A stretch of 57,295 nucleotides of DNA from a virus. Below, in pieces: positions 16,163-47,498 of this stretch. The stretch lies in the IMG/VR virus record IMGVR_UViG_3300010158_000080, positions 1 through 57,295 of that record. The stretch is one strand, 5' to 3'. A model generated the notes under the pieces. That model saw only the letters and a program-made list of their open reading frames with translations, was not told the DNA's origin and did no database searches. The translations under genes were made by a program, and so were the position numbers. Within the stretch, counting starts at the first letter, position 1. Each line of letters begins with the position of its first letter.

Positions 16163-16345
16163 TCATGGGCGGGGTTCCTTTGTGTTGGCAAGGGCAATGA
16201 TGTGGTCAACCAGCAAGCGCATGGCAGCCGCAATCACCGCCCTTTGCGCCCTGTCGCAGTTGTGCGGCGCAATCGCCATGGCGAGGTCGCCAACTGCCCG
16301 CAAAAGGTCGGCAGCGCGGTTTTCTACGTCGGTGCGGTCAACCAT
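16163..16345 (-). CDS. Unrecognised small protein
   Basis: A 60-residue helical protein (ENRAADLLRAVGDLAMAIAP). ATG 16345 is reached from the preceding gene with an eight-base overlap. No family recognised. Confidence 0.62.
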   Translation of the reverse strand: MVDRTDVENRAADLLRAVGDLAMAIAPHNCDRAQRAVIAAAMRLLVDHIIALANTKEPRP

Positions 16346-17120
16346 GCTCCAAATCCTGTTGATGGATAGCGCAAAGCAAATCGCAGCTTGGCGCAATCGC
16401 ATTGGTGGTTGGCTGGTCGGCGGGAATATCGTCGATGAATGCCCTGATATTGTGGACCTTGCCGTCCGCATCGGTTTCGCGGCCAACTATGGCGAGGCGA
16501 ACGCCAAGCCCCCGCGCAATCGCAGCGGTGCGCGCAAAGCCCTCTGGGAACCATTTGCGGTGGTTCGCCCAATAGCCGGGCGAGGTCGCCTTGCAGCAAC
16601 CAGAGCGAAGGCAGTTGGCGTTGTGGAAGCCCATCGCATAGGTGCGCGGCGGCGCAATGCCCGCACCTTCAATCAATGCGAGGCAGTTGGCCTTGGTAAT
16701 CTTGCGATCAATGAGCGGTGTTACAACTTTCAAGTTTGGATATGTCTCGCGCAACTTATCTGCCCGCGCCCGGTCGCTCTTGTCGTCGGTGTAGCCAAAA
16801 ATGTGAACATCGCTGGGCAACTCGAAGTTCAGGCGAGGCACAAACTTCAATTCGCCAGTGCAGACCGCGCCATTAAGGCCAGACATATAGCCCCGCTTTT
16901 CCCAAACATCCCAAGTGTCCGCGTATTTCTCGGACTTGATGACCGTGACTTTGCTGCCAAACCATCCTTCGCAATCCGCACGAAATCGGGCGTTGTCCTC
17001 ATCCTCTGCACCTGTAGCGCAAGTGACAATCAAGCCGGCATCAATGCCGTGATCTTGAATGTCGAACATGGTTGCAACTGCGCTTGCGGCACCATCGCTG
17101 AACCAGCGCAAACGCCTCAC
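16338..17120 (-). CDS. PAPS-reductase-like PP-loop enzyme
   Basis: A 260-residue protein of the adenine-nucleotide alpha-hydrolase superfamily. The pyrophosphate-binding loop is FSDGAASAVAT (about 7-17, the S-x-G-x-x-S form). Later come CTGELKF (Cys87) and the cluster NANCLRSGCCKA (Cys170, 175, 176), typical of phage PAPS-reductase/DndC-like proteins. Such enzymes use ATP or PAPS chemistry, in several systems to move sulfur into nucleic acid or reduce sulfate. Start is GTG 17120, overlapping the preceding gene. The real substrate is unknown. Confidence 0.82.
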   Translation of the reverse strand: MRRLRWFSDGAASAVATMFDIQDHGIDAGLIVTCATGAEDEDNARFRADCEGWFGSKVTVIKSEKYADTWDVWEKRGYMSGLNGAVCTGELKFVPRLNFELPSDVHIFGYTDDKSDRARADKLRETYPNLKVVTPLIDRKITKANCLALIEGAGIAPPRTYAMGFHNANCLRSGCCKATSPGYWANHRKWFPEGFARTAAIARGLGVRLAIVGRETDADGKVHNIRAFIDDIPADQPTTNAIAPSCDLLCAIHQQDLEHG

Positions 17121-17530
17121 GCCCCTTCCCCCACATCAATCGAAGCGCCGGAAGCCTTGGCTTGGTGTTCAGATATGATGGTGGCGGGGTCGATGGCGCG
17201 GATGCCCTCATTCAATTTGAGGGCAGCCGCACGAGCGACCTCAAAAGCCTTGGCAAATGCCGCAACATCAAGCCGAGCTAGATCATCGGAAAAAATGCTG
17301 TTCACCGTGTCGCAGGCGAGGCAATCAAACCCCTTCACGATCCGGGTAAAGCCGCAGACCTCGCAGTAAGGATCGTGTTCACCCATCCCGCACTCGCAAT
17401 CCGTTTCAGGGTATGGATCGTCAATGGTAGCGCAGCGGTGCGCACGTACCACGCCGCGCCCTTCGCAGGTCGGGCAAGCGGTCACTACGCTGCGGTCATT
17501 CCATGCTGGTGTCTTGTTTGGCGGTGTCAT
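17117..17530 (-). CDS. DnaJ-type zinc-finger protein
   Basis: A 137-residue protein with an N-terminal zinc region holding CPTCEGRG and CEVCGFTR, plus CDCECG-like intermediate cysteines, as in DnaJ cysteine-rich domains. A helical C-terminal half follows (residues 80-137). It is coupled to the PAPS-reductase-like gene and may be its partner or a general adaptor. AAGGAAG precedes ATG 17530. Confidence 0.7.
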   Translation of the reverse strand: MTPPNKTPAWNDRSVVTACPTCEGRGVVRAHRCATIDDPYPETDCECGMGEHDPYCEVCGFTRIVKGFDCLACDTVNSIFSDDLARLDVAAFAKAFEVARAAALKLNEGIRAIDPATIISEHQAKASGASIDVGEGA

Positions 17531-17611: not shown

Positions 17612-18400
17612 TCATGGCGACCTCGCAGCGGTTTTGCTAGCCATCATGTGAGCAAGAAACCCCTGATCGGGATCGGGTTGCGTTGAACGGGAGGCTGGAG
17701 TTTTCACAGTCCTAAAATTCCGACTGTTCAAAACCCATGTCTCCCAAGCATCCTGCCAGCTTACAAACCGACTCCCCTTGCTGCGATGGTGTTTGGTAAA
17801 ATGCTCAATCTGAGTTTTGATCTCACCATCAGACCAATTTGCAATCACCTCTCTGCATTTGCTGGCAGGGCCAAATTCAGCAGGTTTCCAATCGACCGGG
17901 ATTACATGCTTGCGATCTGTGTTTTTAAGATTGGGGCTTATCGGCTTTGCGGGGCTTGGCTCATCAGCATCATTCGCCACATAAATAATTGTTTCTTTGT
18001 TCCCTTGTTCTTTTGCTGTCCGGTTTCTGTCCGGTTTCTGTCCGATTTGCTGTCCGGACAAATGTCCGGTTTCGCTCGGCACTTCCTGATATTTCTCGTA
18101 GTTGCAAATAGTTATAACAGATTTACCATGTCCGGTTTCCCGTTCGATCATGTGTTCGGTTTCGAGACGGGTCAAAAACCGTTCAACAGAGCTTGGCGAC
18201 CAATTCCATTCCTTCGCCAAATGCTCCCGGCCAATGCAAATTTGCCCGCGCTTGACCTCGATAGTCCTTCCACGAGCATCATGCTGGGTATCTTTCCATG
18301 CGGCATTAGCGACCAGCCAGAACCATGCACGAAAGCGATCTCCATCCTTTAGGATAGGATGCAAAAACGCTTGGCGATACATGGCTATAAAGCCGCTCAT
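17612..18400 (-). CDS. Replication initiator, lambda-O-like
   Basis: A 262-residue protein. The N-terminal 110 residues form a winged helix-turn-helix as in phage replisome organisers (RGQICIGREHLAKEWNWSPS, then FLTRLETEHMIERE). A polar linker (110-165) follows, then a DnaT-like C-terminal helical domain (FVSWQDAWETWVLNSRNF). The linker-coding DNA contains a cluster of 11-base repeats, the same arrangement as the lambda origin inside gene O. It is placed right after the helicase, which it would recruit. Confidence 0.78.
   Translation of the reverse strand: MSGFIAMYRQAFLHPILKDGDRFRAWFWLVANAAWKDTQHDARGRTIEVKRGQICIGREHLAKEWNWSPSSVERFLTRLETEHMIERETGHGKSVITICNYEKYQEVPSETGHLSGQQIGQKPDRNRTAKEQGNKETIIYVANDADEPSPAKPISPNLKNTDRKHVIPVDWKPAEFGPASKCREVIANWSDGEIKTQIEHFTKHHRSKGSRFVSWQDAWETWVLNSRNFRTVKTPASRSTQPDPDQGFLAHMMASKTAARSP
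18016..18140. repeat. Iteron cluster, candidate replication origin
   Basis: Plus-strand copies: CTGTCCGGTTT at 18016 and 18027, CTGTCCGATTT at 18038, CTGTCCGGACA at 18050, ATGTCCGGTTT at 18062 and 18128, with a degenerate GTGTTCGGTTT near 18152. Spacing is 11 or 12 bases, not a multiple of three, so the repeat is in the DNA and not in the protein. TGTCCGGACA (18051-18060) is a perfect palindrome. A/T-rich DNA flanks both sides (17980-18014, 18085-18127). Confidence 0.65.
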
Positions 18401-18570
18401 GCGGATATAACCCCTTTCGATTTAGCATAGCGATCAGCATGTAACGCGCTACGGATATTACCCCTTGTGCCAATGCAAAGGTGATTTTGTAAAGCGCCGC
18501 AAGTCGGGCATGATGCCTTGATAGCATCCCGCCTCCTGCTTGACTGCAGGAATAGATATTGGCCCGTCAT
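18397..18570 (-). CDS. Small zinc-finger protein between helicase and initiator
   Basis: A 57-residue protein fitting exactly between its neighbours: ATG 18570 overlaps the helicase stop (ATGA) and its TGA overlaps the initiator ATG. It contains CPTCGALQNHLC (three cysteines plus His) followed by a basic tail with LHADRYAKSKG. Similar short cysteine proteins occur in phage replication operons; a helicase-loading or DNA-binding role is possible. The other frames in this stretch are poorer. Confidence 0.72.
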   Translation of the reverse strand: MTGQYLFLQSSRRRDAIKASCPTCGALQNHLCIGTRGNIRSALHADRYAKSKGVISA

Positions 18571-19913
18571 CCCCGGACTGCCTGATAGCTGGCATGAAAC
18601 TGGCCAAACGCACTACCGGTCGTTCCATGCCTCTTTTTGGCAGCGATGAACTCAATCTGCCCCCTGATTTCCTCCATCAGATCACGCCAATTTGGATATT
18701 CCGGCGCAGTCTCTGCCGGTTCGACAAGTGCAAGATAATACTCTTTTCGCAGGAGAAATATCACCATATCGGCATCCTGCTCTAACTGCCCGCTATCACG
18801 CAAATCTGAAAGCATGGGCCGCTTGTCGGGTCGCTTTTCGACCTCGCGGGAAAGCTGCGCCAATGCCAGAACCCCAACGCCATGATCTTTCGACATGGCT
18901 TTGAGCGCCATCGACACTTCTGATATATCCTCGTATTTGTTGACGCGCCTATCAGGGCGCATAAGCTGCATATAATCGACGACGACCAACTCCAACTTAT
19001 GCCCATTTGCGGCCATACGGCGGGCGTGGCGGCGAATGAGCATATTCAGCCGGCCAGTGGTAAGCCCACCAGCGTCAACGACCTGCAAGGGCAGTCTGTG
19101 AGCCAATGCGCGGGCATGGCCAATCTTGTCAATCTGGTCGCGGGATAGGTCGCGGGAAACAATCGCCCCATAGGGAACCCCGCCATTCTCAAAGCAAATG
19201 TCCGCAGCCATGCGGCCAGCCAACTGTACGCTCGACATTTCCAGCGACACAAACAGGACGCCATGCCCCTTGCGCGCCGCGCCTATCGCATAAGACAATG
19301 CCACAGCAGTCTTGCCCATCCCCGGCCTCGCCGCCAAAATGACAAATTGCTTGGCCTCGATAGGGCCGACAAGCTTATCGAAAGAGGGAATTTGGCCGCA
19401 AGTCACACCCACGATTTTTGATTCCAGACTGACGAACAATTCATCAAAGCACTGGCCACCTGTGGGCTGGTGGATCGCGTCATTGCCATTATCAGCCAAA
19501 GCCGCATCAGCATGGGCAATAATCTCGGAGGCGGTCGCATTTGGATCGGCGCAAGCATCGGCTGCCACGGTCAAGCCTGCCTGCATCCGGCGGCGGCGGC
19601 CTAGATCGGCAATCGTCAAGGCATGTTGCTTTGGCGGAATCAATGAGACTTCGCGGGTCAGGCGCGCAAGATACCCCAACCCTCCAAGCGTTACGAGCGC
19701 CTCATCACCCTCAAAATATCCTTTGATGGTGACGGGGTTGGCCTTTTTCCCCAAGGAAGCTTCTCGAACAATCGCCGCGAATATTCGGCCATGCACCGGC
19801 TCGGCAAAATCGGCATCTGTCAAAACATCCGCAATGGCATCAACATGGCTACCAGTCAGAAGCGCGCCAAGCAATTCAGCCTCGGATCCGATATTTATGA
19901 GGGCGGCGTTCAT
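18567..19913 (-). CDS. dnaB: Replicative DNA helicase, DnaB type
   Basis: A 448-residue hexameric 5'-3' helicase. The N-terminal domain (about 8-130) is the DnaB helical domain that interacts with primase and loader. The RecA-like core has Walker A ARPGMGKTAVAL (Lys201), Walker B-like LELVVVDYMQLM, and the DnaB blocks ALAQLSREVEKRPDKRP and DLRDSGQLEQDADMVIFL. No phage primase or polymerase was found, so host enzymes probably complete the replisome. Confidence 0.95.
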   Translation of the reverse strand: MNAALINIGSEAELLGALLTGSHVDAIADVLTDADFAEPVHGRIFAAIVREASLGKKANPVTIKGYFEGDEALVTLGGLGYLARLTREVSLIPPKQHALTIADLGRRRRMQAGLTVAADACADPNATASEIIAHADAALADNGNDAIHQPTGGQCFDELFVSLESKIVGVTCGQIPSFDKLVGPIEAKQFVILAARPGMGKTAVALSYAIGAARKGHGVLFVSLEMSSVQLAGRMAADICFENGGVPYGAIVSRDLSRDQIDKIGHARALAHRLPLQVVDAGGLTTGRLNMLIRRHARRMAANGHKLELVVVDYMQLMRPDRRVNKYEDISEVSMALKAMSKDHGVGVLALAQLSREVEKRPDKRPMLSDLRDSGQLEQDADMVIFLLRKEYYLALVEPAETAPEYPNWRDLMEEIRGQIEFIAAKKRHGTTGSAFGQFHASYQAVRG

Positions 19914-30324: not shown

Positions 30325-33300
30325 CTATTGCTGTGCTTTCCTTTTGGCCATCGCGGCTTGATCTGCCCGAAACTTCTCGACCTGTTCAGGTGTAGCAATC
30401 CGCATAAAATCTCGAACTTGCTTTCCATTCATGCGGAACGACGGGTTTAGTGTCGTCCGAATAATGTAGGATTGCAAAGAAGGTGCGACTTTCAACTCGT
30501 TCATTTTTTGCCGCGCTCCAGCAACATCGCCTCGCTTTATCATTTTTCCAATTTCAGCTTTAGCCTCATCAAACCTAAACCGCTGCGATTCCTTGGCATT
30601 GTAAATGTCAGCCATGCCGGGACCGCCGGGTGCGCCGGGACTAATTGTTATGCCAGCCAAAGGTAGCATCGCGGCAAGTGCTGCGCTTTTCTTGTCTCCG
30701 GTGCCGTGGAAATAGTCGTTGACCGCATCGTATTGGCTCATCGGCAACGTACCAATTATTACATCGTAACCAAGCCTGCCTATCACAGCCCCATAGCCAT
30801 AAATCCCCTTGTCATCTGGCCCGATAATCTTGTGCCCAAACCCGCGATCATTAGCTGCAACCTCGTACATCAATTTACCCAAAAAGCTTAGTTTTCGCAG
30901 CATTATATCGCGTGGCTGCGTAACCCAGCCGATTTGATCCTCGTTCACTTTACCTGTTGGCAGCCGGCCATAGATCGCTGTGCCGTTTTCATCATAGCGA
31001 ATGAGGAATCTTCCTTCTTTTCCTTTTTCATTGTCGCTTGGAGCTTGGTAAATTTGACCGGCCAGCCATGCAGCAAGATGGGCCGCAAGCACCAAACTCA
31101 CTGTCGAAAATGCCGATTCTATCAGGAGCATACTTGCCGCTTTAAGACGGGTACGCCCTTGCGCTTTGTCCAGCATCAGGGGGCCAGCATCACGCAAAAT
31201 TTGTGCTTTCACATCCGACGGCAAACCGCCGATAACATCCTTTGCTGCGGCCATATTACCCAAAGTAAACGAACGCGAGAATAGCAGAAGGTTTGCTGTG
31301 GTCCGCGCCATTTGAGACATCGCCTCCATCGGCAATGCGCCCGCATAGCGGTTGGCAAAATGTGCCGCCTCTCGGCCAGCCGTTACCGGGTCGAGGCCAG
31401 CCTTAATTCCCTTCTCGCGCAAGTGAGCGTAAAGGCCTGCCTGCAAATCTGCAATACGATCCCACAAAAGCGTATTGTGCCAAACGTCGCCAAACTTGTC
31501 GATGGCGCGGCGCGTAGCCTCGCCAGCCGTGGGCGAAAACAAATCAACACCCTTGCCGAGAATTTGCGAGGTCCACGATTGACCGGCCTTTATCCCCTGC
31601 CCTTCCGCAGAAGCAATACCGGCAATGTCCTGATTGAAATAGCGACCCCCAATAGGGTCCATGCCATCTTTAATCGCTTGGCTCATCTGCGCGGGGTCAT
31701 TACGGACCTTGTTGCCGGCAAAATAGCGATAGAGCAACAGGACACCCAGTGGATCGGCTGGAATAGCTTTGCCCCAGATCACCGCGTTGTGCATCACCGG
31801 GTTATACATGATGATGCTCATCTGCTTGGCTTTAATGTCCATGATGGCGCGAACAATTCCGCTGCTCGGCCCGGTCAGCACAGCCTTCAATGGCCCTTCA
31901 AACTCTTTGCTGATCCACAAAGGCATCATATCGCCATTCTGATCGAGCGCTGGAACAACCTTGCCCGTCTCCGCGTCCTCAACAAATTTCACACCCCATG
32001 TTTGCAGTGCTGGCTCATCGGGCATCGTAAAGAACGACTGCGGGTTGCTCGTGGAACCTTCTTCCACCAGCACATCGCCGGTGTCTTTGCTCATAGTTTT
32101 GATATTTTCAACAAGGGTACGCCCCGCAATGGCTTGGTCGAGGCGCTGCGTCGCAACACCAAGTGTCCTAATATCGCGCACAACCTCTACGCCATTCCCA
32201 AAGGCGGCGCGGGCTGCGGCCTCCGTCTCCTCTACCGTTTCATATTTGCGCTGGCGAAGCTGGCCGGTTGTGGTCGAAATTTTGCCACCGCGCCTTTCCT
32301 GTTTCGAAGTGGTTTTGGAAATCACCTTTGGCCCACTGGCAGTCATTTCAATAATCATGCGCGGGACATAGGATTCCAGACCTTCACCCGTTACCATGCC
32401 TAAATCTTGGGCAGCCTTAAAACTGGCATCAGCTCGGCGCTGGAGTTCAAGAACGGTATCACGCTCTTTATCCGTCAAACGGTTTAGCCCTTCATTCGGT
32501 CCCGGCTGATCGCCTCGGCGTAAAATTACGCCCTGCTCGTCCGCAGCTTCCCACATCCGGCGGCGGGATTCCGCATCAAAGTTTTTGACCAGCCATTCGT
32601 CAAGCTTACCCCACTGATATGCAGCTAAGCGCTTGGCATTGGCAAAATCTTTGGCCACACCTTGCGCCCGGTCGGAACCCTCCGCAATAGGGTCAAGCCC
32701 CATCCGCACTTCATGCAAAGCGGTTTGCACTGGATCAGGCAGCGCCTTGCGGGCTGCCTCGGCTAGCTTATGCCCCACATTATCCACGCCACGGCCAAGG
32801 ATGTTGGTAATGATCCCGCCGGGACCGGTGCGAGGGGCTTCCTTGTCGTCGCGCTCCACGCGGCTCTGGCGGGCAAAACTGGCGTCCAAAGCCCCAGCCT
32901 CGGTCATGTCATTCATACGCGAGGCAATCTCCCCGCTCGACATGGCGCGCATTACGTCCTTTGCGGTGCGGAAACCGTTGCCGCGCAGCGCATTGCCGAT
33001 GGCCTCAAAGATAGCCTTGATCCGCTCCCACGCCTTTAGGAGTAGGCCGGCGGGCTGGCGCTCACCTGTTGCAAATCGAGCAAACAGATCGGACACCGCT
33101 TCCTCGACCTGATCTTCGCCAGACAATTCAAAATATCGCTTCTTGATGCTGGCCATCAACCGAGCATCTCCAGTCGCCACCCGCGACAGTGCGCGCCATT
33201 CCGCATCGGTGAAAGCACCCCGCATCGCATGGACAACTTCATGGTTCAAAGCGTGCATTGCGCTCGGCCCATCCATTGCAATGGTAATGACGTTGCGATG

Positions 33301-36300
33301 GAACTCGCCAGCCGGCCCGCCAAGGCTCTTTACGATCTTGAGCGCAACTTTGCCCTCCAAACCGACCTCGCGCAGCCGGTCGAGCATATCGGCATGAGAA
33401 GCAGAAAGTTGTTCGCTACCCGGTTCTGCAATGCTTTGCTTGGCATCACCTTCGGCCTGCGTCTCATCGCTTCGCTTCTCACCAGACAATTCGGTGATGA
33501 CCTGTTGCAGCTGCTCGCGCTTGGCTGCCAATTCATCAGTTTTTGGCCAAGGCTTTGCGACTTCCGCTTGAAGCCCTTCCTGCTCTTGCGCTGCCGCCTC
33601 AACCTTTCGTTGCTCGTATGCTGCCGCCGACCGAAACCGGATTGGGTCCATTTGCTCACGAATTTTATTGATAAGCGCTCGTGCTGTGGACGGCGTAAAG
33701 GCATCTGTCAGCGTATTGTATTGCGCCACCTCGCGCCCTTGAGCATCAAGAACCGAAATAGACGCACTGACTTTGCCGAAACTTTCACCCACATCAATCT
33801 CAGCGGGCATCCCATCAATGCTAACGCCGCTGATCGTAAATTCTTTTTTGCCTTTCGACTCTACCGCCTTTGCCCCAATGGCTTTGGCCAGATCATTGGT
33901 GTCAATAAATTGCTGGTCGCCAAGCGAACCCTCAAAATCTGGCGTTCCCAGCTTGTTTCGGATTGCATTATCCACACCATCGACAGAAGTAATTTTCTCG
34001 CCATCAATGTCGATTGAAAACCGCGCTTTTGGATCATTGGCGCGAAACTTGGCTATAATAGCCTGCGCGGCATCAGTTGCGGCCCGAACATCGTTGTAGG
34101 GCTTGCCATCGACCATAGCCATGCGCTGTGTGGAATTAGCTTGCACTCGCGCTTTTTGCGCCTCCAGCACATCCGCGAACTGGGCGTACATATCGGCGCG
34201 CTGCGGACCATTAGCCATTTGACGCACATTGCTGGCAATCTTGCTGCGCAGCGCGTTGATGCGATTATTGTAAGAGCGTTGTTGCAACTGCATTTTTTTA
34301 ATGTCGCCATCCAACTCGACGCGCTGAATCATTAGCGGATTGCCGGTCGCAAGTGCCGCCATTTCAGCCATGCCGACGCTTTCGGCATCATCAAATTCCA
34401 TAGTGTCCGCACCGTCATATTTACGGATGCCATTGATTGCCTTTAACTTTTTGGCATTCAAGTCCCACATCTTTGCATCTATGCTGCGCTCTGTCACATA
34501 AGCGATCACATCGACGGCAAATTTATCGTCGCCATATTTAGCCAGCAAAGAATTGCCTTGGCGAACAATACGTCCTTCGCGTTGCTCAATGTCAGATGGT
34601 TTCCAAGTCGTGTCGCCGTGGTGGAGCGCAACCAAGCGCTCTTGCACATTCGTACCAGCCCCCATGCGTTGCGTTGACCCAATAAGAACGCGCACTTCAC
34701 CACGGTTTACTTTACCAAACAGATCAGATTTTTGTTTATCGGTATTGGCCTCTTGCACATAAGCGACTTCGCTTTCGGGGATGCCCTGCGCCTTGAGTAG
34801 CTTTTTCAGTTCATCATAAGCATTCCACCCGCCGGCCTGCGCAACCCGCATTGCTTCAATTTCGTTCGGGTTGAATTTTTCCAAACCATCAAGAGCTTTA
34901 GCTTTTGCGTCCTCGTCGCCCTTGCTGACCGCGTCCATGAGCTTGCCATAGGCCGCATCATAGGCCGCAATTATTTTGTCATCGCCTTTCGATTTAGGGA
35001 CAGATCGGTCCAGAAAAATAATCTGGGTGCCTTTATCTGAGTTCCATTTCTTATATGTGGCTGCAACGCGGTCTGCAATTGTCGCCAGTTTGCTGCGCTC
35101 GTCCCCGACATCTATGGTTGGATCAACAGCGCGAGGATCGAGCGAGACTTTGCGCGCACGGTCCATAAGCTTCAACCGAGCAATGTTTCGAGCTTTGGGG
35201 TCCTTTTCAAATGGCAGCTCTTCGAACCCACGCACGACCTCTTCCAGAATGCGTTGCGTGGTCGGAGAAGGTGGAACAACCGCAACTTCACGGTCACGGC
35301 CATTGGCGCGTTGCGAATTGGTATCAGGCAATGGATATTTTTTGCCGGGGTTATCTTCGGCATAAGCTGCTTTAATGTCGTCATTCGTAACGGCATCAGC
35401 CACCGAGTACCACAAATCCATCAATGGGCGCATATTTGCCCAGTTGCGGCCAAGTCGATTGACCTCTTTGACGCCACCCGCCTCTGTTGGCTCCCACTCG
35501 GTTCCGGCGCTGACAAACATAGAGCGCCATGCGTCAAAATTCTCCAACCCCATTTCTTTCAATTCCTGCGGCACAAGGTTGCGCATAAGCAGGTACATTT
35601 CAGAAACAGAATTGCTAATTGGGGTGCCGGTCAGGAAAGCGATGGACGTATTGTGCCGTTCGCGGATTGCCCTCATTTTCAAGTGAAGGTCCATAGCCTT
35701 CTGCGAACCAGTCTTATTGCCCATCCCGCGAATATCTTGCAGGCGTGAGGAATAGGCGAGGTTCTTAAATTCGTGCGCCTCGTCTATTGTGAGGTCGTCA
35801 ATTCCCATTTGCTCAAACGATAGCAGGCGGTCGCGGTTGCCGCCACGTAAACGCGCCAACCGTTCCTCCAGCTTTTTAACCAGCCGTTCAGCCTCGGCCA
35901 CACCGAAAGGTTTGCGAAAACCAGACTGGCCAGCTTCTGCCGCAGCTTTTTCTGCTTCTATGACAGCAGCATGTGCCGATTGCAGTTCATCTTGGATGTA
36001 CCGTTCTTCGGTTGCCCGGTCGAGGTCAATAAAATTGAATGAGCTATGCCCAATAATCGCCATGTCAAAATCACTGGCTGCAATCCGGGCAAACAATCGC
36101 CGTCGGTTAGCGCGCTCAAAATCAGCTTTGCCCGCTGCCATAATCTTTGCGCCGGGGTAAAGCTTGATCGCGTCTTTTGCCCATTGCTCGACTAGATGAT
36201 TTGGCACCACTACAAGCGGCTTATTCGACATGCCCATGCGCCGCCGCTCCATAATGCGCGCAATGGCTGTAAAGGTTTTGCCAGCTCCCACAACATGGTC

Positions 36301-39300
36301 ATACAGCACGGCTGGATCAGTAATCCCGCGCCAGATGCCGTTCATCTGGTGCCGGCGCATTTTGATTACGGCGTCAGGAACTTTGCCAAAAAGCTGCAGG
36401 TGTGAACCATCTCTCTGGCGCAGCAATCGGCTGTTGAATTTTTCATTGAATATATTGACCAACCGATCCCGGCGCTCGTCATTGTTGAATGCCCAATCCT
36501 GAAATTCGCTGGCCAGTTCCTCGCCTTTTTGCTCACTCTCGGCGGTGCCAACCTCATCGACATGCGTTTTCTTGTTTTCGTCTTTGAATGTTACCTTCAA
36601 ACCCTTCGAGTTAAGAATTTTGTCAACAATGGCATCAGCATTGTGAGCATTGGCTGACGTTTCCCACTCAGCAGCAGGCTTGCCGTCGGTGTAAACGGTA
36701 AAAGCGTTGGTCAATTCCGAATAGCTGACATGGGCGTTATGGTAGCCAAGGTGTTTTAGAAAATCAGCATAAACGTCTGGCGGAATCCAATTGCTGCCCA
36801 AAATCGGCGTAATTCGATCGGGCGTCAAATCTTCTGGAATAATGCTCTCAAGCGCTTTGGCATTGGCATCGAGGCCGGCGGCGCGGGCCATGTTGAGTTT
36901 GCGCTTGACCAAGCCAGACAGGTAAAGATCACGCGGCTCCCAGCGTTTTGTCTCTGGGTCATAAAATGCCCTCGGCGTCTCACCTTCGGACAAAGCACGC
37001 TCGGCCCCCGGAACATCGGTCCCTAGCAGTTTGGCAATACGCTCAATGTCAATTCGACCAGACTCAGATAAGGCAATTGAAATCGCATCATTGGCATTTT
37101 CAGCATGTTCCGCAAATTTTGGCGGCGTTGTCACGCGCCGGCTCATAATGTCCGACTTGACCCATTTTCCATCAACATATTTTTCAGTTGCCAAAGGCAG
37201 TCCACCATCTGGCATTACATCGGCAAGGTTTGCTATTTTTCGGTCATTAAGCGCGCCATGTTTGGCTACAAAAGCATCATACTTAGCATTGAGCAAATTT
37301 CGACCAGCGGCAATTTGCGCATCAGTAGCACCGGATGATTCCAAAACAATTTGATTTTTGATGGCATCCCGCACCGGCAAAAGGTCACGCACAATCGCTA
37401 CACGGTCTTTGCCCCAGCGATCTTTGGGCGGAATTTCGTTTTCATTTTGGTAAGTGACAAGTTCTTTTTGGTTTCGGTTAGTGACCTTTCCACCTTCCTT
37501 GACCACTTTAAGCGGTTTTCCATCCTCGCCCAAAGTGTTGGTTGCGCGCTGCCACTTGCCATCAATCGTGTAATTATAGTCGGCGGGGAATGGGGTGTTT
37601 TCGGTCAAGGGAATCTCGCGCATAAGCGCTTTGCCCATTTCACCTGCATCAAAATCGACCACCATGTTGAGCTTATTATCAAGGTCGATTGCAATTGCGC
37701 CGGGTTCAGCGCGCATGGCTGAAAGGCGCATAGCGTCAGCCATGACCTGATAATGCCGCAAAGTTTTTTTGGCGATTCCATTAACGGGTGCAATTTCCGG
37801 CAATCTGGAAACCGCTTGGTCGAGCAAGCTTTCAAACTGCGAAGGGTCAGCCAGCGTCACATTCAGATCGGCGCGAGCGTTCATAGTGCCCGTCGCGTTA
37901 ATGTCGCCCACAACCATATAAGGGCGGCTTACAAAAAACGGGTTAGCATTGATTCGCTCACCAGAACCGGCGGGATCGTCAATGGTACTGGAAGGCACCC
38001 ACTCGTTCATAGTTTGCAACGCTCGGTCAATTTCATAGGGCGCAGGCTGTCCATGACCCTTTGGGTATTCGCCGCCCTCCATAACTTTGATCGAAGCATC
38101 GGCTACGGCTTGTTCATCTTCCGTCAGCTTTTTGAAAAATAGCATGTCGGTCACAACGGACGTTCGCGCATTTTCCTTGAATGCGGTGTCAGGCAGACGA
38201 ATGCCACCGATAAATCTACCGCGCCGCGCCATTTCTTTGCGGGCGCTTGGGTCGAGCGCATCCATGAGATTATGGCTTACCACCATTGCCATAGTCCCGC
38301 CCGGTGCCAGCGCATCAAGCGACCCAAGGAAAAACTGATTGTGGATCGACTTGCCATTAAGCGCGCTGTTGTGCGGAAAATAAAGGCTTTCCCGGCCAAA
38401 GGGTGGGTTGCCAATTGCAAGAGCAAATTGATTTTTGGGCAGCGGAAGCTGTTGGAAACCCGAATGAACAACATCGGCATTTGGGTAAAGCTTTTTGGCA
38501 ATGCGGGCGGTCAGGCCATCATACTCGACTCCAAAGGTCCGGCTGCCACCGCGCAAATTTTCAGGCATCAAGCCAAGAAAATTGCCAGTTCCCATAGATG
38601 GCTCAAGGATCGCCCCTTCGCGGAAGCCAAGCTTTTGAGCAGCTTTCCACATGGCATCGACAACGGTTTTGCTGGTATAGTGCGCAGCGGTCGTAGAATT
38701 ACGCGCAGCTTTCAATTCGTCAGGCGTCAACAATTCCTCAATCTCAGAAACGCGCTTCTCCCAGCCTTTGGCAACACCTTCGCCCTCTTTGGCCCCAGCC
38801 ACACGAAAAGCGTTTTTCAAGCCACCCCAGCCGACATAGCGCGCAAGCTGGCGCTGTTCCTCTGGGCTTGCCCGACGGTTTTCGGTTTCCAGCCGCTTGA
38901 GCGTCTTGATCGCGTCGAGATTGTCTTGAAATTTAACACCCTCGGTGCCTTCGCCCAGTTTCACATCATCGCTGATCGTAAAATCCGAAGCGGGCACATT
39001 GATTGGTGTCGAGTTCTCAATCACCTTGTTGGCAGCGATGACTTCTTCGCCGGGAGTTTCCGCGACAGGCTCACCTTTTACTCGCGGTTGATTCTTTCTT
39101 CCACCTCTGGCTCCGGTGGCAGGTTTATCAGTTGCGGAAGAACGAACTCCTCCGCGTCCTCCCTCGACAATCCCTGTCGCATCATTTGCGCTACTTGGTT
39201 CGCTGCTGTCCGGCTGGCCAATTGCGCCTGTCGGTTCAGTTCCCCCGTTTGCTTGAGGCTCTGGTACATTTTCGGACACCATTGTTTCCAATGGTCCAGT

Positions 39301-42300
39301 GCTTGGCGGGTATATTGCATCCCCAGCATTGTCTGTCTCCTTAGGGACATTATGCGCTTGTTCGGCTTCTTGCGCAAAATCTTTTAACGCTGCCGCCATG
39401 ACCTCCGGGCTATCCATGTCGGCGGTTGGCAAACCACGATCAACCAACTCATGCCTTGCACCATCATACCAATGGCGAAGGAAGGGGCGCAGTTTTTCAA
39501 ACGATTCCCCAAGATCGCCAATCATCGCCCGCGCAAAATCTGCAAACTTACGAGCGCCAGCCTCAATATGGAAAGCCGCCAGCTCGGAACCCAGCAACAG
39601 CGTTTCAGGGTCGATCCCCGCGTTAAGACGGTTCATGCGCTCCTTGAGCAACCGGCGCACCTCGGCAGCGCGATCAATGCTCACGCCCTTGTTTTGCGAT
39701 CCCCATGTAGGTTTGCGCGCAGCGGCTTCCTCTGCCGTTAAAAATTGGTCGCTGCGTTTGGAAGTATCTACGCTGGCGACATAGCCTTGATCCCTTGTCG
39801 GGACTAAGCTAACCGTTTCTTCATGGCGAATGCCATTGCGGGAATAAGAGCGAACGCCATTAGCATCTTCAAAAACATCATGGCCCTCTAGGTTTTTGCC
39901 TATGGGTTTTGCTTTTGAGGTGGCCGCTGCTTCGGGTGTAGGTTTGGCGGCATCAGGCAATGGCTTGGCTAAGTTGGCTTGATCCCATCCACGATACCAC
40001 GCCTCCCCAACAGCGGAACCCATATCATGCAAATAGCTGGGCAGCCGGCGTTCTTCACCACGCGCAAAAGCCTCAGCACCATCAGCCTTAGCTCGTTCTG
40101 GTCGATCAGCATTTTTTAAGAAAAGATAATTGCTGGCTCGAACGTCATCGGGAGAAATGCCTTCATGCGCAGCCATCTGTTCATCTGTGGCTTGACGCGG
40201 ATTTATGCCTTCAAGGGCAATCCGGGCATAATCGAGCAATTCTTTTTTGACTGGGAAACCTTGGCCCAGATCATTGGCCAAATTCCATTTTGGCACTGGC
40301 CCCCGGCTGTTGTTCACAAGGCGATCAAAACCATCGTTAATGCGCGCATCAATCCATTCACGTGCGCTCATCTCATTACCAGAACTGTCACGGACTCGCA
40401 TATTTTCAGCAGTCGAAATTGCAAATTTGCGATTGCGTTCAGCAATTCCGCGTTCAATTTCTGCTTCATGGTCAGCCGCAGCTTTGGCCACTTCGTCTTT
40501 AGTAATCCCAGCCCATTCACGCAAAACTTCACGTGTCGTAGCAAGGCCGCTAGGAAGCTTGATGCCAGTTGCCTCGGTAAAAATCAGCCGCGACTTTTTG
40601 TTGTCTGGACGCAGCATATCACGCAGCGCCCAAAAATCTTTATTGCGAATGTAATCCACAAATTTATGATCGGAAGGCAAAACATCCCGGCCAAGCAATT
40701 CGGCGCGGCGGCGCGCAAGTGCATCATAATCAATGGCTGGTTGCGCAGCCTCGGCGGCACCGGCAGCCACAGGCGCAGCTTTTTCTTTTGCTGCCAAGTC
40801 CATCATACGCTCGACATCGGCGTCGTCATGCAACTGGCCGGTGGCGTTTATGTCCTTGAGCGCGGCAAGTTCGGCTTGCTCATGGGGCGCAAGAGCGGGC
40901 TGTTCGGTATGCGCAACAACATCAGCCGCCCCCGCTGGGGGAGGTGTGGCCGGCTTGTTCAGTACATCACGGATTAAATCTTCATGCTTGGCCGAATACA
41001 GAAGCGCGCCGTCTTTGCCCGGTGATACCTTGGCATTGTCAGGTAGCGCGTCCTTGATCGCGGCAATCTGCTCTGGCGTTGCGCCAGTTAGGGTTACGCC
41101 TTTTCCGCTTGCTGTGCGCTCCAGCTTCGCCGCATTCAGTTCAGGTGATGCAGCCGCAGCAGCCTCTCGCGCTCCCGCACCACGACCTTCTGGATTCGCA
41201 ACGCGTTCTCCAGCCGCATCTTGTGCGCCGGATCGAACGTCCCTTTCGTCAGATACCTTTCCAGCGCTGCTACCCTCGCTTTGCTTTCCTCCAGAGAGTA
41301 CCTCAAGGTGGCCATTGAGGGCGACGATGTCGTTGGGGGAGAGGAGTTGTTCAGCTTGGGCCTCATGTTCGTTGGTTGCAGCATGGCTTGGCGCTCCAGT
41401 ATCGGCCTCTTGTTCGATCACATCGGCCAGTAGGGTGTCATGTGGCGCATCTGGGGCATGATCTACCCCAGCCTCCGCAGCGCGCACCTGCAGCGCCTCA
41501 GAGGCCACGGGGCGGTTGTCGTCGCGGTATTTCTCGATTGCATCCGTTGGCGGCATCTCAAACGGGGTTTTGGCCGGCTTACTCGGTTTTTTTGCCTGTT
41601 TCATGTTGGCAAAATCAGGCTCACCGGCATTAGTTTCATTCAATGGATCTGGTTTGGCTGCACGTTTTCTGATTGCATCAGCCGCCATACTTGTAGCTTT
41701 TTTACCAAGGGCAATGCCACCATGCAAAAGTTCGCCGCCGGCAGCCATAATTAGCGCCTGCTTACCAACATCATGAAAAAGTGGTCGATTAGGGTCATAT
41801 TGCTGGGCGACCGCATTATCACCTAAAGTCATAGCGCCACCGATAGCGGCGTTTCCACCTATGCGAGAGGCCGCATTCACGCCAACTCTAGCCAACCCTT
41901 TTTCAGCAATTTGCATACCAGCCTTGCCAAGGCTTTTACCAATGATCCCGCCAACAATCTTTTCGCCCGGAATCAACATAGCCGCGCCGGAAACAACCGC
42001 ACCTTCCGACGCTATAATTTGAGCTTTTTCTATTTCTTTGGCACTTGGTTGCCTTTTGGGTGCTGCTTCTGCCACTTTGGTTGCGAATGCTAGAGCCGCC
42101 TCATCTGACATGCCTTGGTTTTTACCTTTGTGAAAAGTATCCCAATATGCCTGTTCGTTGGGGGCTTGCATTTGCGCCTGAATGGCAGCTTCATAATGAG
42201 CATCATAGCTATCACCCGCTGCGACTTTTGCACCTATTATTGGATTTATGAGCAAAGGCACGGAGCCAATTGCGCCGTGCATAATTTCTTGCCCAAGGGT

Positions 42301-43248
42301 AGGGTTTTTTAATGCCGTCTCTTTTGCTTTGTTTTTCAAATTCTCCGCAAGAAGGGTGTAGCCTTCTGATAGGGCTGGTGTACCAGTTAGCGAATCTATA
42401 ACCGTACCGACAACTTGAGACGCACCAGCGCCAGCTTGGTAAAGGGCCGACCCCAATTCAGTCCCATAATCGCCCAAAGTTCCCCACCAGCCCTTTGGCT
42501 TGGCCGGAGCGGCAGCGGCGGGCGCGAATTGCGCCCAAGGATCAGATGATGATTTGGGGGCATCTTTGGCGGGCGCGAATTGCGACCAGTCATCATCGAC
42601 TTTCCCACCATGCGCAGCAGCCCAAGCATTTGCGGCTGCCATGCGCTTGCCTCGGGCTAGACCTTTCGAGCGCTCAAAATGCTGGTCAATTGCGACGGCA
42701 GCGGCGGCAGGTGTTGGCGCGTTCAAAATTGCAGCGCGTTTTGCCGCCGGCAAACGGTCGATCTCATATTTTGTAAACAACGCGACCTGCATCGGTGTGG
42801 CTTGCGACACATCAATACCCATCATTTTTTGAAATTCAGCGGCGCGATCTGGGTGCCACTGGAACACACCACGCGCAGCACCGCCATCGCCTTTTGCATG
42901 TGGATCAAAACCGCTTTCCGCAAAGCCGTTACCCATCAGGCCAGCAATGACGTTACCCGAAAACCCGACATCCTGAAAAGCATTGGCATATTTGGGCGCA
43001 GCGGCGCTGTAGTCTATCTTGCCTGCAAACGACGGGGCAAAGCCTTGTGCGCCACCCGAAGGCTGTTCTCCACGCCCCCAATCGCCTGTCGCGGCTTGGT
43101 AAAACGGGTTGTCTTTAGGATCGCCTTGCCCTTTGAGCGGGGTTCCAGTGCCAACGCCAGTCGGGATCGGCGGCGGGGTCCATTCCGTTGCGTCATCAAT
43201 AGGAATATCCCCGCTATCAGCGGATACGAATTGATCCCAATCGCTCAT
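30325..43248 (-). CDS. Giant 4,307-residue ejected polyvalent protein (lysozyme, DNA methylase, SNF2 helicase, zincin)
   Basis: One uninterrupted frame of 12.9 kb. Domains in order: a tail-lysozyme domain (about 78-212, catalytic Glu111 in GFAESGF); hydrophobic and helical region 255-520; polyvalent-protein linker domains (about 850-1,270, including HIEAGARKFADFARAM); an N6-adenine methylase (motif I EPSMGTGNF at about 1,549, NPPFG at Asn1614); an SNF2-type helicase (GAGKT Lys2324, DEAH Asp2489, TGTPISN, motif VI QREGRIVRQGN at 2889); a zincin HEVVH at 3336-3340; and a C-terminal region with membrane-like segments near 4,035-4,065. This matches DarB-like antirestriction proteins carried in virions. 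W-x-QF repeats lie at 4, 220 and 239. It should be packaged and injected, opening the cell wall then protecting incoming DNA. Confidence 0.92.
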   Translation of the reverse strand: MSDWDQFVSADSGDIPIDDATEWTPPPIPTGVGTGTPLKGQGDPKDNPFYQAATGDWGRGEQPSGGAQGFAPSFAGKIDYSAAAPKYANAFQDVGFSGNVIAGLMGNGFAESGFDPHAKGDGGAARGVFQWHPDRAAEFQKMMGIDVSQATPMQVALFTKYEIDRLPAAKRAAILNAPTPAAAAVAIDQHFERSKGLARGKRMAAANAWAAAHGGKVDDDWSQFAPAKDAPKSSSDPWAQFAPAAAAPAKPKGWWGTLGDYGTELGSALYQAGAGASQVVGTVIDSLTGTPALSEGYTLLAENLKNKAKETALKNPTLGQEIMHGAIGSVPLLINPIIGAKVAAGDSYDAHYEAAIQAQMQAPNEQAYWDTFHKGKNQGMSDEAALAFATKVAEAAPKRQPSAKEIEKAQIIASEGAVVSGAAMLIPGEKIVGGIIGKSLGKAGMQIAEKGLARVGVNAASRIGGNAAIGGAMTLGDNAVAQQYDPNRPLFHDVGKQALIMAAGGELLHGGIALGKKATSMAADAIRKRAAKPDPLNETNAGEPDFANMKQAKKPSKPAKTPFEMPPTDAIEKYRDDNRPVASEALQVRAAEAGVDHAPDAPHDTLLADVIEQEADTGAPSHAATNEHEAQAEQLLSPNDIVALNGHLEVLSGGKQSEGSSAGKVSDERDVRSGAQDAAGERVANPEGRGAGAREAAAAASPELNAAKLERTASGKGVTLTGATPEQIAAIKDALPDNAKVSPGKDGALLYSAKHEDLIRDVLNKPATPPPAGAADVVAHTEQPALAPHEQAELAALKDINATGQLHDDADVERMMDLAAKEKAAPVAAGAAEAAQPAIDYDALARRRAELLGRDVLPSDHKFVDYIRNKDFWALRDMLRPDNKKSRLIFTEATGIKLPSGLATTREVLREWAGITKDEVAKAAADHEAEIERGIAERNRKFAISTAENMRVRDSSGNEMSAREWIDARINDGFDRLVNNSRGPVPKWNLANDLGQGFPVKKELLDYARIALEGINPRQATDEQMAAHEGISPDDVRASNYLFLKNADRPERAKADGAEAFARGEERRLPSYLHDMGSAVGEAWYRGWDQANLAKPLPDAAKPTPEAAATSKAKPIGKNLEGHDVFEDANGVRSYSRNGIRHEETVSLVPTRDQGYVASVDTSKRSDQFLTAEEAAARKPTWGSQNKGVSIDRAAEVRRLLKERMNRLNAGIDPETLLLGSELAAFHIEAGARKFADFARAMIGDLGESFEKLRPFLRHWYDGARHELVDRGLPTADMDSPEVMAAALKDFAQEAEQAHNVPKETDNAGDAIYPPSTGPLETMVSENVPEPQANGGTEPTGAIGQPDSSEPSSANDATGIVEGGRGGVRSSATDKPATGARGGRKNQPRVKGEPVAETPGEEVIAANKVIENSTPINVPASDFTISDDVKLGEGTEGVKFQDNLDAIKTLKRLETENRRASPEEQRQLARYVGWGGLKNAFRVAGAKEGEGVAKGWEKRVSEIEELLTPDELKAARNSTTAAHYTSKTVVDAMWKAAQKLGFREGAILEPSMGTGNFLGLMPENLRGGSRTFGVEYDGLTARIAKKLYPNADVVHSGFQQLPLPKNQFALAIGNPPFGRESLYFPHNSALNGKSIHNQFFLGSLDALAPGGTMAMVVSHNLMDALDPSARKEMARRGRFIGGIRLPDTAFKENARTSVVTDMLFFKKLTEDEQAVADASIKVMEGGEYPKGHGQPAPYEIDRALQTMNEWVPSSTIDDPAGSGERINANPFFVSRPYMVVGDINATGTMNARADLNVTLADPSQFESLLDQAVSRLPEIAPVNGIAKKTLRHYQVMADAMRLSAMRAEPGAIAIDLDNKLNMVVDFDAGEMGKALMREIPLTENTPFPADYNYTIDGKWQRATNTLGEDGKPLKVVKEGGKVTNRNQKELVTYQNENEIPPKDRWGKDRVAIVRDLLPVRDAIKNQIVLESSGATDAQIAAGRNLLNAKYDAFVAKHGALNDRKIANLADVMPDGGLPLATEKYVDGKWVKSDIMSRRVTTPPKFAEHAENANDAISIALSESGRIDIERIAKLLGTDVPGAERALSEGETPRAFYDPETKRWEPRDLYLSGLVKRKLNMARAAGLDANAKALESIIPEDLTPDRITPILGSNWIPPDVYADFLKHLGYHNAHVSYSELTNAFTVYTDGKPAAEWETSANAHNADAIVDKILNSKGLKVTFKDENKKTHVDEVGTAESEQKGEELASEFQDWAFNNDERRDRLVNIFNEKFNSRLLRQRDGSHLQLFGKVPDAVIKMRRHQMNGIWRGITDPAVLYDHVVGAGKTFTAIARIMERRRMGMSNKPLVVVPNHLVEQWAKDAIKLYPGAKIMAAGKADFERANRRRLFARIAASDFDMAIIGHSSFNFIDLDRATEERYIQDELQSAHAAVIEAEKAAAEAGQSGFRKPFGVAEAERLVKKLEERLARLRGGNRDRLLSFEQMGIDDLTIDEAHEFKNLAYSSRLQDIRGMGNKTGSQKAMDLHLKMRAIRERHNTSIAFLTGTPISNSVSEMYLLMRNLVPQELKEMGLENFDAWRSMFVSAGTEWEPTEAGGVKEVNRLGRNWANMRPLMDLWYSVADAVTNDDIKAAYAEDNPGKKYPLPDTNSQRANGRDREVAVVPPSPTTQRILEEVVRGFEELPFEKDPKARNIARLKLMDRARKVSLDPRAVDPTIDVGDERSKLATIADRVAATYKKWNSDKGTQIIFLDRSVPKSKGDDKIIAAYDAAYGKLMDAVSKGDEDAKAKALDGLEKFNPNEIEAMRVAQAGGWNAYDELKKLLKAQGIPESEVAYVQEANTDKQKSDLFGKVNRGEVRVLIGSTQRMGAGTNVQERLVALHHGDTTWKPSDIEQREGRIVRQGNSLLAKYGDDKFAVDVIAYVTERSIDAKMWDLNAKKLKAINGIRKYDGADTMEFDDAESVGMAEMAALATGNPLMIQRVELDGDIKKMQLQQRSYNNRINALRSKIASNVRQMANGPQRADMYAQFADVLEAQKARVQANSTQRMAMVDGKPYNDVRAATDAAQAIIAKFRANDPKARFSIDIDGEKITSVDGVDNAIRNKLGTPDFEGSLGDQQFIDTNDLAKAIGAKAVESKGKKEFTISGVSIDGMPAEIDVGESFGKVSASISVLDAQGREVAQYNTLTDAFTPSTARALINKIREQMDPIRFRSAAAYEQRKVEAAAQEQEGLQAEVAKPWPKTDELAAKREQLQQVITELSGEKRSDETQAEGDAKQSIAEPGSEQLSASHADMLDRLREVGLEGKVALKIVKSLGGPAGEFHRNVITIAMDGPSAMHALNHEVVHAMRGAFTDAEWRALSRVATGDARLMASIKKRYFELSGEDQVEEAVSDLFARFATGERQPAGLLLKAWERIKAIFEAIGNALRGNGFRTAKDVMRAMSSGEIASRMNDMTEAGALDASFARQSRVERDDKEAPRTGPGGIITNILGRGVDNVGHKLAEAARKALPDPVQTALHEVRMGLDPIAEGSDRAQGVAKDFANAKRLAAYQWGKLDEWLVKNFDAESRRRMWEAADEQGVILRRGDQPGPNEGLNRLTDKERDTVLELQRRADASFKAAQDLGMVTGEGLESYVPRMIIEMTASGPKVISKTTSKQERRGGKISTTTGQLRQRKYETVEETEAAARAAFGNGVEVVRDIRTLGVATQRLDQAIAGRTLVENIKTMSKDTGDVLVEEGSTSNPQSFFTMPDEPALQTWGVKFVEDAETGKVVPALDQNGDMMPLWISKEFEGPLKAVLTGPSSGIVRAIMDIKAKQMSIIMYNPVMHNAVIWGKAIPADPLGVLLLYRYFAGNKVRNDPAQMSQAIKDGMDPIGGRYFNQDIAGIASAEGQGIKAGQSWTSQILGKGVDLFSPTAGEATRRAIDKFGDVWHNTLLWDRIADLQAGLYAHLREKGIKAGLDPVTAGREAAHFANRYAGALPMEAMSQMARTTANLLLFSRSFTLGNMAAAKDVIGGLPSDVKAQILRDAGPLMLDKAQGRTRLKAASMLLIESAFSTVSLVLAAHLAAWLAGQIYQAPSDNEKGKEGRFLIRYDENGTAIYGRLPTGKVNEDQIGWVTQPRDIMLRKLSFLGKLMYEVAANDRGFGHKIIGPDDKGIYGYGAVIGRLGYDVIIGTLPMSQYDAVNDYFHGTGDKKSAALAAMLPLAGITISPGAPGGPGMADIYNAKESQRFRFDEAKAEIGKMIKRGDVAGARQKMNELKVAPSLQSYIIRTTLNPSFRMNGKQVRDFMRIATPEQVEKFRADQAAMAKRKAQQ

Positions 43249-45169: not shown

Positions 45170-46096
45170 TCAGAAAATAGATGGATTTGCCGCAATCGTT
45201 GAACCTGCACTGTTATATAAACCATTAGTAGGCGTAACAATTCCACCGGAACCATAAAGCGGCGTTCCATAGCTGCTAAATTTATTGCTGAGTTGGCTCA
45301 ATCCGCTGGTCAAAGCATTTGTTGAACCCACAATGCCCGCCGCTTGCGATTGGCCGGCTTGCAATTGAGATTGCGCCGCGTTCGCCGCCGCCGTCGCTCC
45401 CGCATTGCCCACGCCCGCCGCAGCGTTTTCGCCAAGCGAGGCTGCGGATTGAAGTGCTGACACATAGGGCTGCCAGCCCTGTTGCTGGGCATAACCTTGG
45501 CCGTAGGCTTGGGCATCTTTAAGCTGCGCGCCGGACAGCGTGAGGCCACGCGATGCCGCGCTTCGGTCGAGAGCTTGAATGCCTTGGCCAAGCCCGAACT
45601 GATAACCCGGCATTTGAGTAAGCAGTTGGGTTGCCAATTGCGGGTTGGGCTGCCCGGTATTGTTGGCGTTTACCGTCGTCCCTTGCTGGGGTTGCGTACC
45701 ACCAAGCGCAGAAACTGGGACTTGGATTTGCCCAATGCCGGGAATGTCGATTGTCGTCATGGCATTGGGGTTCGATCCCGCCGCGCCAAGCTGGCTGGTC
45801 ATGCCTGTTTGCTGGCCGCCACCGCCAAAGCCAAAAATGTTGGCGAGTTGCGAAAACGCATTATTGCCACCCGTCATAAACGGCGACAAATCATTGCGCG
45901 TTCGGTCATACATTTGCAGTTGCGTTTGCGTGGCATTGTTTGCTGCCTGCGTTTGCGCTGCCGCCGCATCGCCTGCCGCGTTACTACCTATAACTGAATT
46001 GGCAATTGTAGATCCAATTCCGACAACAGCCGCTGTAGTGCCAATTGCCGCTGCGCTGCCAAGCGCCCCAATGCCGATTGCCGCACCGATACCCAT
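45170..46096 (-). CDS. DNA transfer/ejection protein, P22 gp7-like
   Basis: A 308-residue protein with an alanine/glycine-rich hydrophobic start (about 1-45) able to enter membranes, and the diagnostic segment MPGYQFGLGQGIQALDRSAA followed by SRGLTLSGAQLKDAQAYGQG. That block is typical of P22 gp7-like injected proteins. Its ATG shares one base with the stop of the sulfotransferase-like gene. Confidence 0.83.
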   Translation of the reverse strand: MGIGAAIGIGALGSAAAIGTTAAVVGIGSTIANSVIGSNAAGDAAAAQTQAANNATQTQLQMYDRTRNDLSPFMTGGNNAFSQLANIFGFGGGGQQTGMTSQLGAAGSNPNAMTTIDIPGIGQIQVPVSALGGTQPQQGTTVNANNTGQPNPQLATQLLTQMPGYQFGLGQGIQALDRSAASRGLTLSGAQLKDAQAYGQGYAQQQGWQPYVSALQSAASLGENAAAGVGNAGATAAANAAQSQLQAGQSQAAGIVGSTNALTSGLSQLSNKFSSYGTPLYGSGGIVTPTNGLYNSAGSTIAANPSIF

Positions 46097-47166: not shown

Positions 47167-47498
47167 CAGCTCGTGACTGTGCCAGAGGCAAAAAGGTTGA
47201 CCAAACCACCTGTAGCACCCTTGGCATAAATCTTGTCGCCGGGAGCAAGCGTCTGGCCGATCAGCGCAAAGATGTTGTACGGCACACCAGCCAAACAATT
47301 CTGTTCGACAATGATGCTGGCTGCGCCCGTACCACCGCCAGACGGCACCCATTCAATCGTAACCAATTCCGCCGCATTTCCGCGTGGATTATAGAGCGTC
47401 ATCGCATCGACGCGAGTATAGCCCGCCGCCGTAAAATAAGCGGTGAACGCATTGGCGATCTGTTGCGACTGGATAAGGGGTTGGATCGTGACAGACAT
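47166..47498 (-). CDS. Small virion protein, unrecognised
   Basis: A 110-residue beta-rich protein, ATG 47498 with AAAGGA upstream. Near the neck-gene block; no family recognised. A weak stem (GGCTT/AAGCC, 47571-47587) lies in the short gap before it. Confidence 0.68.
   Translation of the reverse strand: MSVTIQPLIQSQQIANAFTAYFTAAGYTRVDAMTLYNPRGNAAELVTIEWVPSGGGTGAASIIVEQNCLAGVPYNIFALIGQTLAPGDKIYAKGATGGLVNLFASGTVTS

Follow-up and report, generated by a model that had tools for sequence, protein, structure and literature searches.

A phage gene labelled PAPS reductase encodes a PptA family protein and probable IscS-fed sulfurtransferase

SspD, the sulfur-inserting enzyme of the Ssp system of single-stranded DNA phosphorothioation, is a desulfurase-fed protein of the ATP-pyrophosphatase type that works with SspB and SspC, and by profile it is the closest characterised cellular relative of the phage PptA proteins considered here. 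TdpC of the Tdp system, reportedly described by An et al. in 2025, is said to be a compact phosphorothioation enzyme that has few partners and proceeds through an adenylated DNA intermediate, and would be a precedent for the near-solitary phosphorothioation enzyme proposed below. In the Dnd system of double-stranded DNA phosphorothioation, DndC uses DndA or IscS, needs DndD and DndE, and holds a 4Fe-4S cluster through WCTxRLK and GCWxC motifs that resemble motifs of PptA. IscS serves DndC as sulfur donor (PMC11662687, PMC12193691), the DndC cysteines 146, 280 and 283 are 4Fe-4S ligands in common with APS reductase (PMC12193691), and the C280S mutation abolishes phosphorothioation (PMC11662687). 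Viral cysH is described in the literature as an auxiliary metabolic gene (AMG) conserved worldwide and is read as a gene of assimilatory sulfate reduction, a role that is listed there as lacking validation (PMC9301287, PMC12713726). Among the papers searched, none relevant was found on phage-encoded phosphorothioation or on PptA in connection with phosphorothioate, IscS or phage.

The window, by which we mean the whole 57,295-nucleotide stretch of viral DNA that was analysed, carries a minus-strand pptA-like gene that matches exactly the ORF named in the original prediction (Table 1). The GTG of this gene shares bases with the TGA of its upstream neighbour (GTGA), and its stop is overlapped by the ATG of the downstream ORF; because of these two overlaps, the gene is assigned by sequence to a translationally coupled operon, and the upstream Cys-rich ORF and the pptA-like gene are likely to be on one transcript. 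A longer antisense ORF (16182-17369, plus strand) lies opposite. When the pptA-like ORF was compared with its nearest relative (L002, 73% identity), differences at the three codon positions numbered 57/41/122, and 86 codons differed only synonymously versus 65 non-synonymously. From this codon-position pattern and synonymous excess, the minus strand is the coding strand, and ORF 16338-17120 is a real gene under coding selection. Homologues were found at 53 viral loci (contigs) and at 23 bacterial genome loci, the latter mostly in Alphaproteobacteria with some in Gammaproteobacteria. Phenylobacterium sp. J367 (L057, L058) and a Roseobacter MAG (L063, L079) each have a pair of PptA loci whose contig positions differ and which probably belong to repeated prophages.

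Table 1. Coordinates of the pptA-like gene, its flanking ORFs and motifs in the window, and of the Ssp-linked relative
Feature	Coordinates	Strand	Remarks
pptA-like gene, 260 aa	16338..17120	-	GTG start; probable IscS-fed sulfurtransferase; PHROGs label 'phosphoadenosine phosphosulfate reductase'
Upstream Cys-rich ORF	17117..17530	-	GTGA overlap with pptA-like gene, apparently translationally coupled
Downstream small ORF	16163..16345	-	Its ATG overlaps the pptA-like stop by 8 bases
PP-loop-like motif S8-D-G-A-A-S13	17082..17099	-	Family consensus SxGAAS; without the Asp of SGGxDS
Cys87 in CTxELK	16860..16862	-	Invariant (36/36); by motif equivalent to DndC Cys146 (WCTxRLK), predicted 4Fe-4S ligand
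Cys170 and Cys175, NC..(..)C	16596..16613	-	By motif equivalent to DndC Cys280/Cys283, 4Fe-4S ligands
Cys246 and Cys250, CxxxC	16371..16385	-	C-terminal; matches SspD C-terminal CxxC
Thalassotalea sp. 42_200_T64 Ssp cluster with PptA	L078:5890-12428 and L145:362-6450		

Pfam gave no match for the window protein, the PHROGs match was to PHROG 424 (2e-28), and the sole PADLOC match was to SspD (31.7 bits, E 3e-8), to which the PptA of Vibrio phage vB_VhaP_VH-5 also matches (1.5e-11). The only solved relative is 'PptA' in PDB entry 21fy (phmmer 4.1e-38, about 36% identity; profile 2.7e-79), which was the only credible match in a profile search of the PDB, a search that found no sequence relation to TdpC. 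Over 201 aligned residues the 21fy PptA is 100% identical to QGH73774.1 of VH-5, a phage of the Autographiviridae, whereas the window is from a tailed phage of a probable alphaproteobacterial host; the two proteins, both of phage origin, are homologous over almost their whole length, have the same five cysteines and fall in the same clade. When the PDB was queried with the E. coli IscS sequence, that sequence was present in exactly two entries, 1p3w and 21fy, and 21fy therefore holds this cysteine desulfurase (two chains) along with PptA (two chains). No further phage chains were found in 21fy with the VH-5 neighbour proteins as queries, and from its sequences we read the entry as an IscS-PptA co-complex, a feature of the VH-5 protein that would extend to the window protein by homology. 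A phage protein on a host desulfurase is what is expected of a sulfur acceptor, as with TusA or IscU on IscS, and is unexpected for a PAPS reductase.

In the phylogenetic tree the window protein is inside the PptA clade (support 100/99), whose sister is a group of mycobacteriophage PAPS-reductase-like proteins (100/98), and CysH (100/99) and DndC form separate clades. We regard its membership of the PptA family as nearly certain. The PptA kind was already known, its structure having been solved by others, and the window protein is an added member of modest novelty in kind. In the sister family, a distant PAPS-reductase-like gene of Mycobacterium phage HanShotFirst is directly followed by a gene for a NifU-like Fe-S protein (gp85-gp84, L102:1753-3086), which hints at Fe-S chemistry there too.

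The motif anatomy of the family was derived from an alignment of 36 members. The SDGAASA loop singled out in the original prediction is present, but it is not the SGGxDS loop of ATP-pyrophosphatases: SspD, DndC, TtcA and MnmA keep that loop, PptA lacks its Asp, and the second loop residue, D in the window protein, varies across PptA members and is mostly C elsewhere. Likewise, Cys170, Cys175 and Cys176 all exist as predicted, but only the first two are conserved (36/36 and 35/36), C176 being retained in just 6/36, and the list had passed over C87 (36/36) as well as C246 and C250 (35/36 each, with one gap). The five cysteines C87, C170, C175, C246 and C250 are invariant in an alignment of the window protein, the VH-5 PptA and two SspDs, where they fall in the CTxxLK, CxxC and C-terminal CxxC motifs of SspD. 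A CTxx[LM]K motif with a CxxC-type pair is common to PptA, nearly all SspDs and all complete DndCs, although the C170/C175 pair has a five-residue spacing in the window protein; the C-terminal pair is common to PptA and SspD and is missing from DndC, which is also longer than the window protein. By analogy, Cys246 and Cys250 could possibly be a sulfur-accepting dyad. An AlphaFold2 model of the window protein (pLDDT 91) had CysH/APS reductase as its best Foldseek matches and also matched the Fe-S thiolases LarE and TtuA and MnmA, and these model-based matches place the protein in the superfamily without deciding its function; the structure set searched apparently ends on 8 April 2026, and 21fy could not appear among the matches.

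E. coli K-12 and genome searches supplied the reference sequences for comparison with the cellular families. The PptA profile scored 62 bits against SspD, 6.8 against CysH, 0.6 against MnmA and 0.4 against DndC, and had no similarity to TtcA or TilS; the tRNA thiolases TtcA, MnmA and ThiI either failed to match or scored 1.6 bits at most. The DndC model did not match the window protein, and the SspD match of 31.7 bits compares with 362-464 bits for full-length SspDs, all of which have an SGG[KR]DS loop versus SDGAAS in the window protein, at about 20% identity. With CysH the window protein has in common the adenine-nucleotide alpha-hydrolase fold and the SxGxxS loop spacing. However, the catalytic ECGxH of CysH is found in 0/36 PptA relatives, while 9/9 CysH references carry ECG[IL]H, and CCxxRK, which is present in alphaproteobacterial CysH/APR, occurs in no PptA member; no thioredoxin-type chemistry is expected. 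The comparison with ordinary CysH that had been proposed as a check thus separates the protein by motif and by its own clade, but the tree does not resolve the deep sister of PptA: in AU tests CysH (p 0.50), SspD (0.38) and DndC (0.55) were each not rejected. We have therefore not filed the window protein as an SspD.

The predicted location in a replication operon agrees with the neighbouring genes, a DnaB helicase (18567-19913) and a DnaD-like loader (17612-18400), and the window also encodes Erf, a RecE-like exonuclease, SSB and a DNA methyltransferase. Two proposed partners fared less well. The adjoining 'zinc-finger' gene is Cys-rich, matches no family and, having no homologue in the 76 other loci, is not a conserved partner. 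The sulfotransferase-like gene 30 kb away (46096-47352, minus strand) scores 23.8 bits with Pfam Sulfotransfer_3 against a cut-off of 27, and a sulfotransferase partnership was dropped because of this sub-threshold match and because no PAPS chemistry is expected of a protein that by motif is not a PAPS enzyme. That gene lies in the virion-structural region, and the structural half of the genome also contains a 4307-aa ORF (30325-43248, minus strand) that takes up about 23% of the window. A scan of the 78 ORFs of the window detected a GapR-like DNA-binding domain (1e-32), which suggests an alphaproteobacterial host, a KTSC domain and a chaperonin 10 (9e-7).

No cysteine desulfurase was found in the window, nor any SspB, SspC or Dnd homologue by PADLOC, nor DUF4007; a search for DndE in nine phage records gave no match either, a weak result since the control was equally silent. 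Since the window has neither a desulfurase nor a recognisable SspB/SspC/Dnd partner, the PptA-like enzyme would act alone on host sulfur. Among the 76 loci there is no conserved partner gene, and the neighbours are diverse primases, helicases, SSB, recombination exonucleases and resolvases. In VH-5 the gene comes after a putative dNMP kinase and RNA polymerase, and in Rhizobium phage N65 it adjoins the DNA polymerase.

One chromosomal locus connects the family to an Ssp system. Thalassotalea sp. 42_200_T64 carries a PptA gene whose product is 51% identical to VH-5 PptA and which lies 88 bases upstream of the desulfurase gene sspA, in the same direction, the SspA being recognised by PADLOC (1.4e-129) and by PDB SspA 6m4j (6e-94). 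This pair is convergent with sspD and sspC, and further on lies sspB/DUF4007 (4.9e-74), DUF4007 being SspB (PMC12839542). Judged by gene content, the locus is a complete sspBCD-sspA phosphorothioation cluster with the PptA gene inside it. By eye, the genes beyond sspB look like a helicase that may carry a nuclease domain, an ATPase resembling Rad50/DndD and a small ORF that may be related to DndE. Ssp linkage was seen in 1/76 loci, and a search of 395 genomes from the same order brought up no second Ssp-linked PptA gene. SspD is encoded in 4/21 PptA-bearing genomes versus 8/383 other sampled alphaproteobacterial genomes (Fisher p 0.002; 0.004 for Alphaproteobacteria only; about 0.04 with a rough size correction), a post hoc comparison of small numbers between samples that differ in class and in genome size, a confounder, and the excess is a lead, not a result.

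The best explanation as a whole, which we hold to be probable by a small measure, is that the window gene encodes a PptA-type sulfurtransferase that phosphorothioates the phage's own DNA without Dnd or Ssp partners. Its parts differ in strength: it is highly probable that the protein relays sulfur from IscS and does not reduce PAPS, and for a DNA phosphorothioate as the product we judge the case evenly balanced. The following account of Fe-S cluster, sulfur route, DNA substrate and purpose is inferred throughout. A host cysteine desulfurase (IscS or an equivalent) would pass sulfur to PptA, where it may be carried by a [4Fe-4S] cluster on C87, C170 and C175 and/or by the C246/C250 pair, the carrier state being a persulfide or cluster-bound sulfide. 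The nucleotide-binding fold would activate a phosphate or base of nucleic acid, which would then be thiolated without Dnd/Ssp partner proteins; the likeliest outcome would be that the phage's own DNA receives a phosphorothioate as it is replicated, and this mark may shield that DNA from host nucleases or mimic a 'self' mark in Ssp/Dnd hosts. We favour the DNA backbone because of the likeness to SspD, the Ssp cluster, the replication and recombination neighbours and the SspD excess. Of the two roles first suggested for the enzyme, DNA sulfur chemistry has thereby gained from the IscS of 21fy, the PADLOC match, the five cysteines and the Ssp cluster, while that of sulfotransferase partner has not. 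Counted against our reading are the P-loop lacking an Asp that SspD and DndC keep, the dependence of both enzymes on partner proteins that are absent in the window, and the fact that neither the PptA name nor the IscS complex names a substrate.

We weighed four alternatives, in the order RNA thiolation, interference with IscS or SspA, PAPS reduction and free-nucleotide thiolation. PptA might be an IscS-fed modifier of host or phage tRNA in the manner of TtcA, MnmA and ThiI, tuning translation or resisting tRNA-cleaving defences. tRNA thiolation in general draws its sulfur from IscS, TtuA and MnmA are on the Foldseek list, and some mycophage relatives are annotated 'tRNA methyltransferase'; we nevertheless think this unlikely, given a profile without TtcA or TilS similarity and with MnmA at only 0.6 bits, neighbours that are DNA replication and recombination genes, and a sole chromosomal linkage to a DNA phosphorothioation cluster. 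If the protein instead docked on IscS or SspA and competed with SspD, DndC or IscU, so that phosphorothioate (PT)-dependent defence or Fe-S supply failed, the IscS complex and the SspD excess would both be accommodated, as would the activity of SspE only with host PT marks (PMC8092258). A pure decoy, however, has no need of a P-loop region and five cysteines that do not vary, without PT the host would come under attack from DndFGH or SspFGH, and the co-directional arrangement with sspA in Thalassotalea suggests cooperation, which makes interference rather improbable.

That the protein is an unusual sulfonucleotide reductase (CysH) raising the supply of sulfite or cysteine, as the PHROG 424 label and AMG annotation have it, would fit the best Foldseek matches, an SxGxxS loop nearer to CysH than to SGGxDS and a CysH sister that the tree does not reject; with ECGxH missing in 36/36, CCxxRK absent, a profile score of 6.8 bits, a window that shows no further sulfate genes and a nearest solved relative in the company of IscS, which has no part in PAPS reduction, we consider it very improbable. 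The gene order in VH-5, behind a dNMP kinase and RNA polymerase, and in N65, beside DNA polymerase, could mean that dNTPs or dNMPs are thiolated and then inserted by the phage polymerase; yet neighbours vary between phages and we know of no thio-dNTP pathway of this kind, and such a route seems to us more doubtful still.

When E. coli and alphaproteobacterial CysH were searched by tblastn against 50,697 phage records, 4 and 3 records matched, and these look bacterial (one Salmonella record of 691 kb, contigs of host DNA filed as an Acinetobacter 'phage', and one short fragment), although phage CysH too distant for the search, such as that of SAR11 phages, may escape. Host genes such as cysH and iscS in AGRM01000002.1, in the Acinetobacter 'phage' MD-2021a contigs and in S.Kent fragments are bacterial contamination. 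In the same 50,697 records the window protein matches 51, many of which carry the label PAPS reductase or hypothetical; the PptA family is represented in this collection, while canonical CysH is all but missing from it. Some viral 'cysH' sulfur-metabolism genes are thus probably misnamed. The fuller proposition, that a lone IscS-fed phage enzyme writes phosphorothioate into phage DNA without any Dnd or Ssp partner, mimicking or pre-empting host phosphorothioate defence, and that a substantial part of the viral 'cysH' AMGs are DNA (or RNA) thiolation genes, is one that we put forward tentatively, as falling somewhat short of an even chance. If it is true, part of what has been written on the viral sulfur cycle would really concern the modification of nucleic acids or counter-defence, and phages as well as bacteria would wield DNA phosphorothioation as a weapon. 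The consequence for annotated viral sulfur genes would be considerable. In the window phage itself, sulfur is probably taken from the host for the modification of nucleic acid, with the phage's DNA as the likeliest target.
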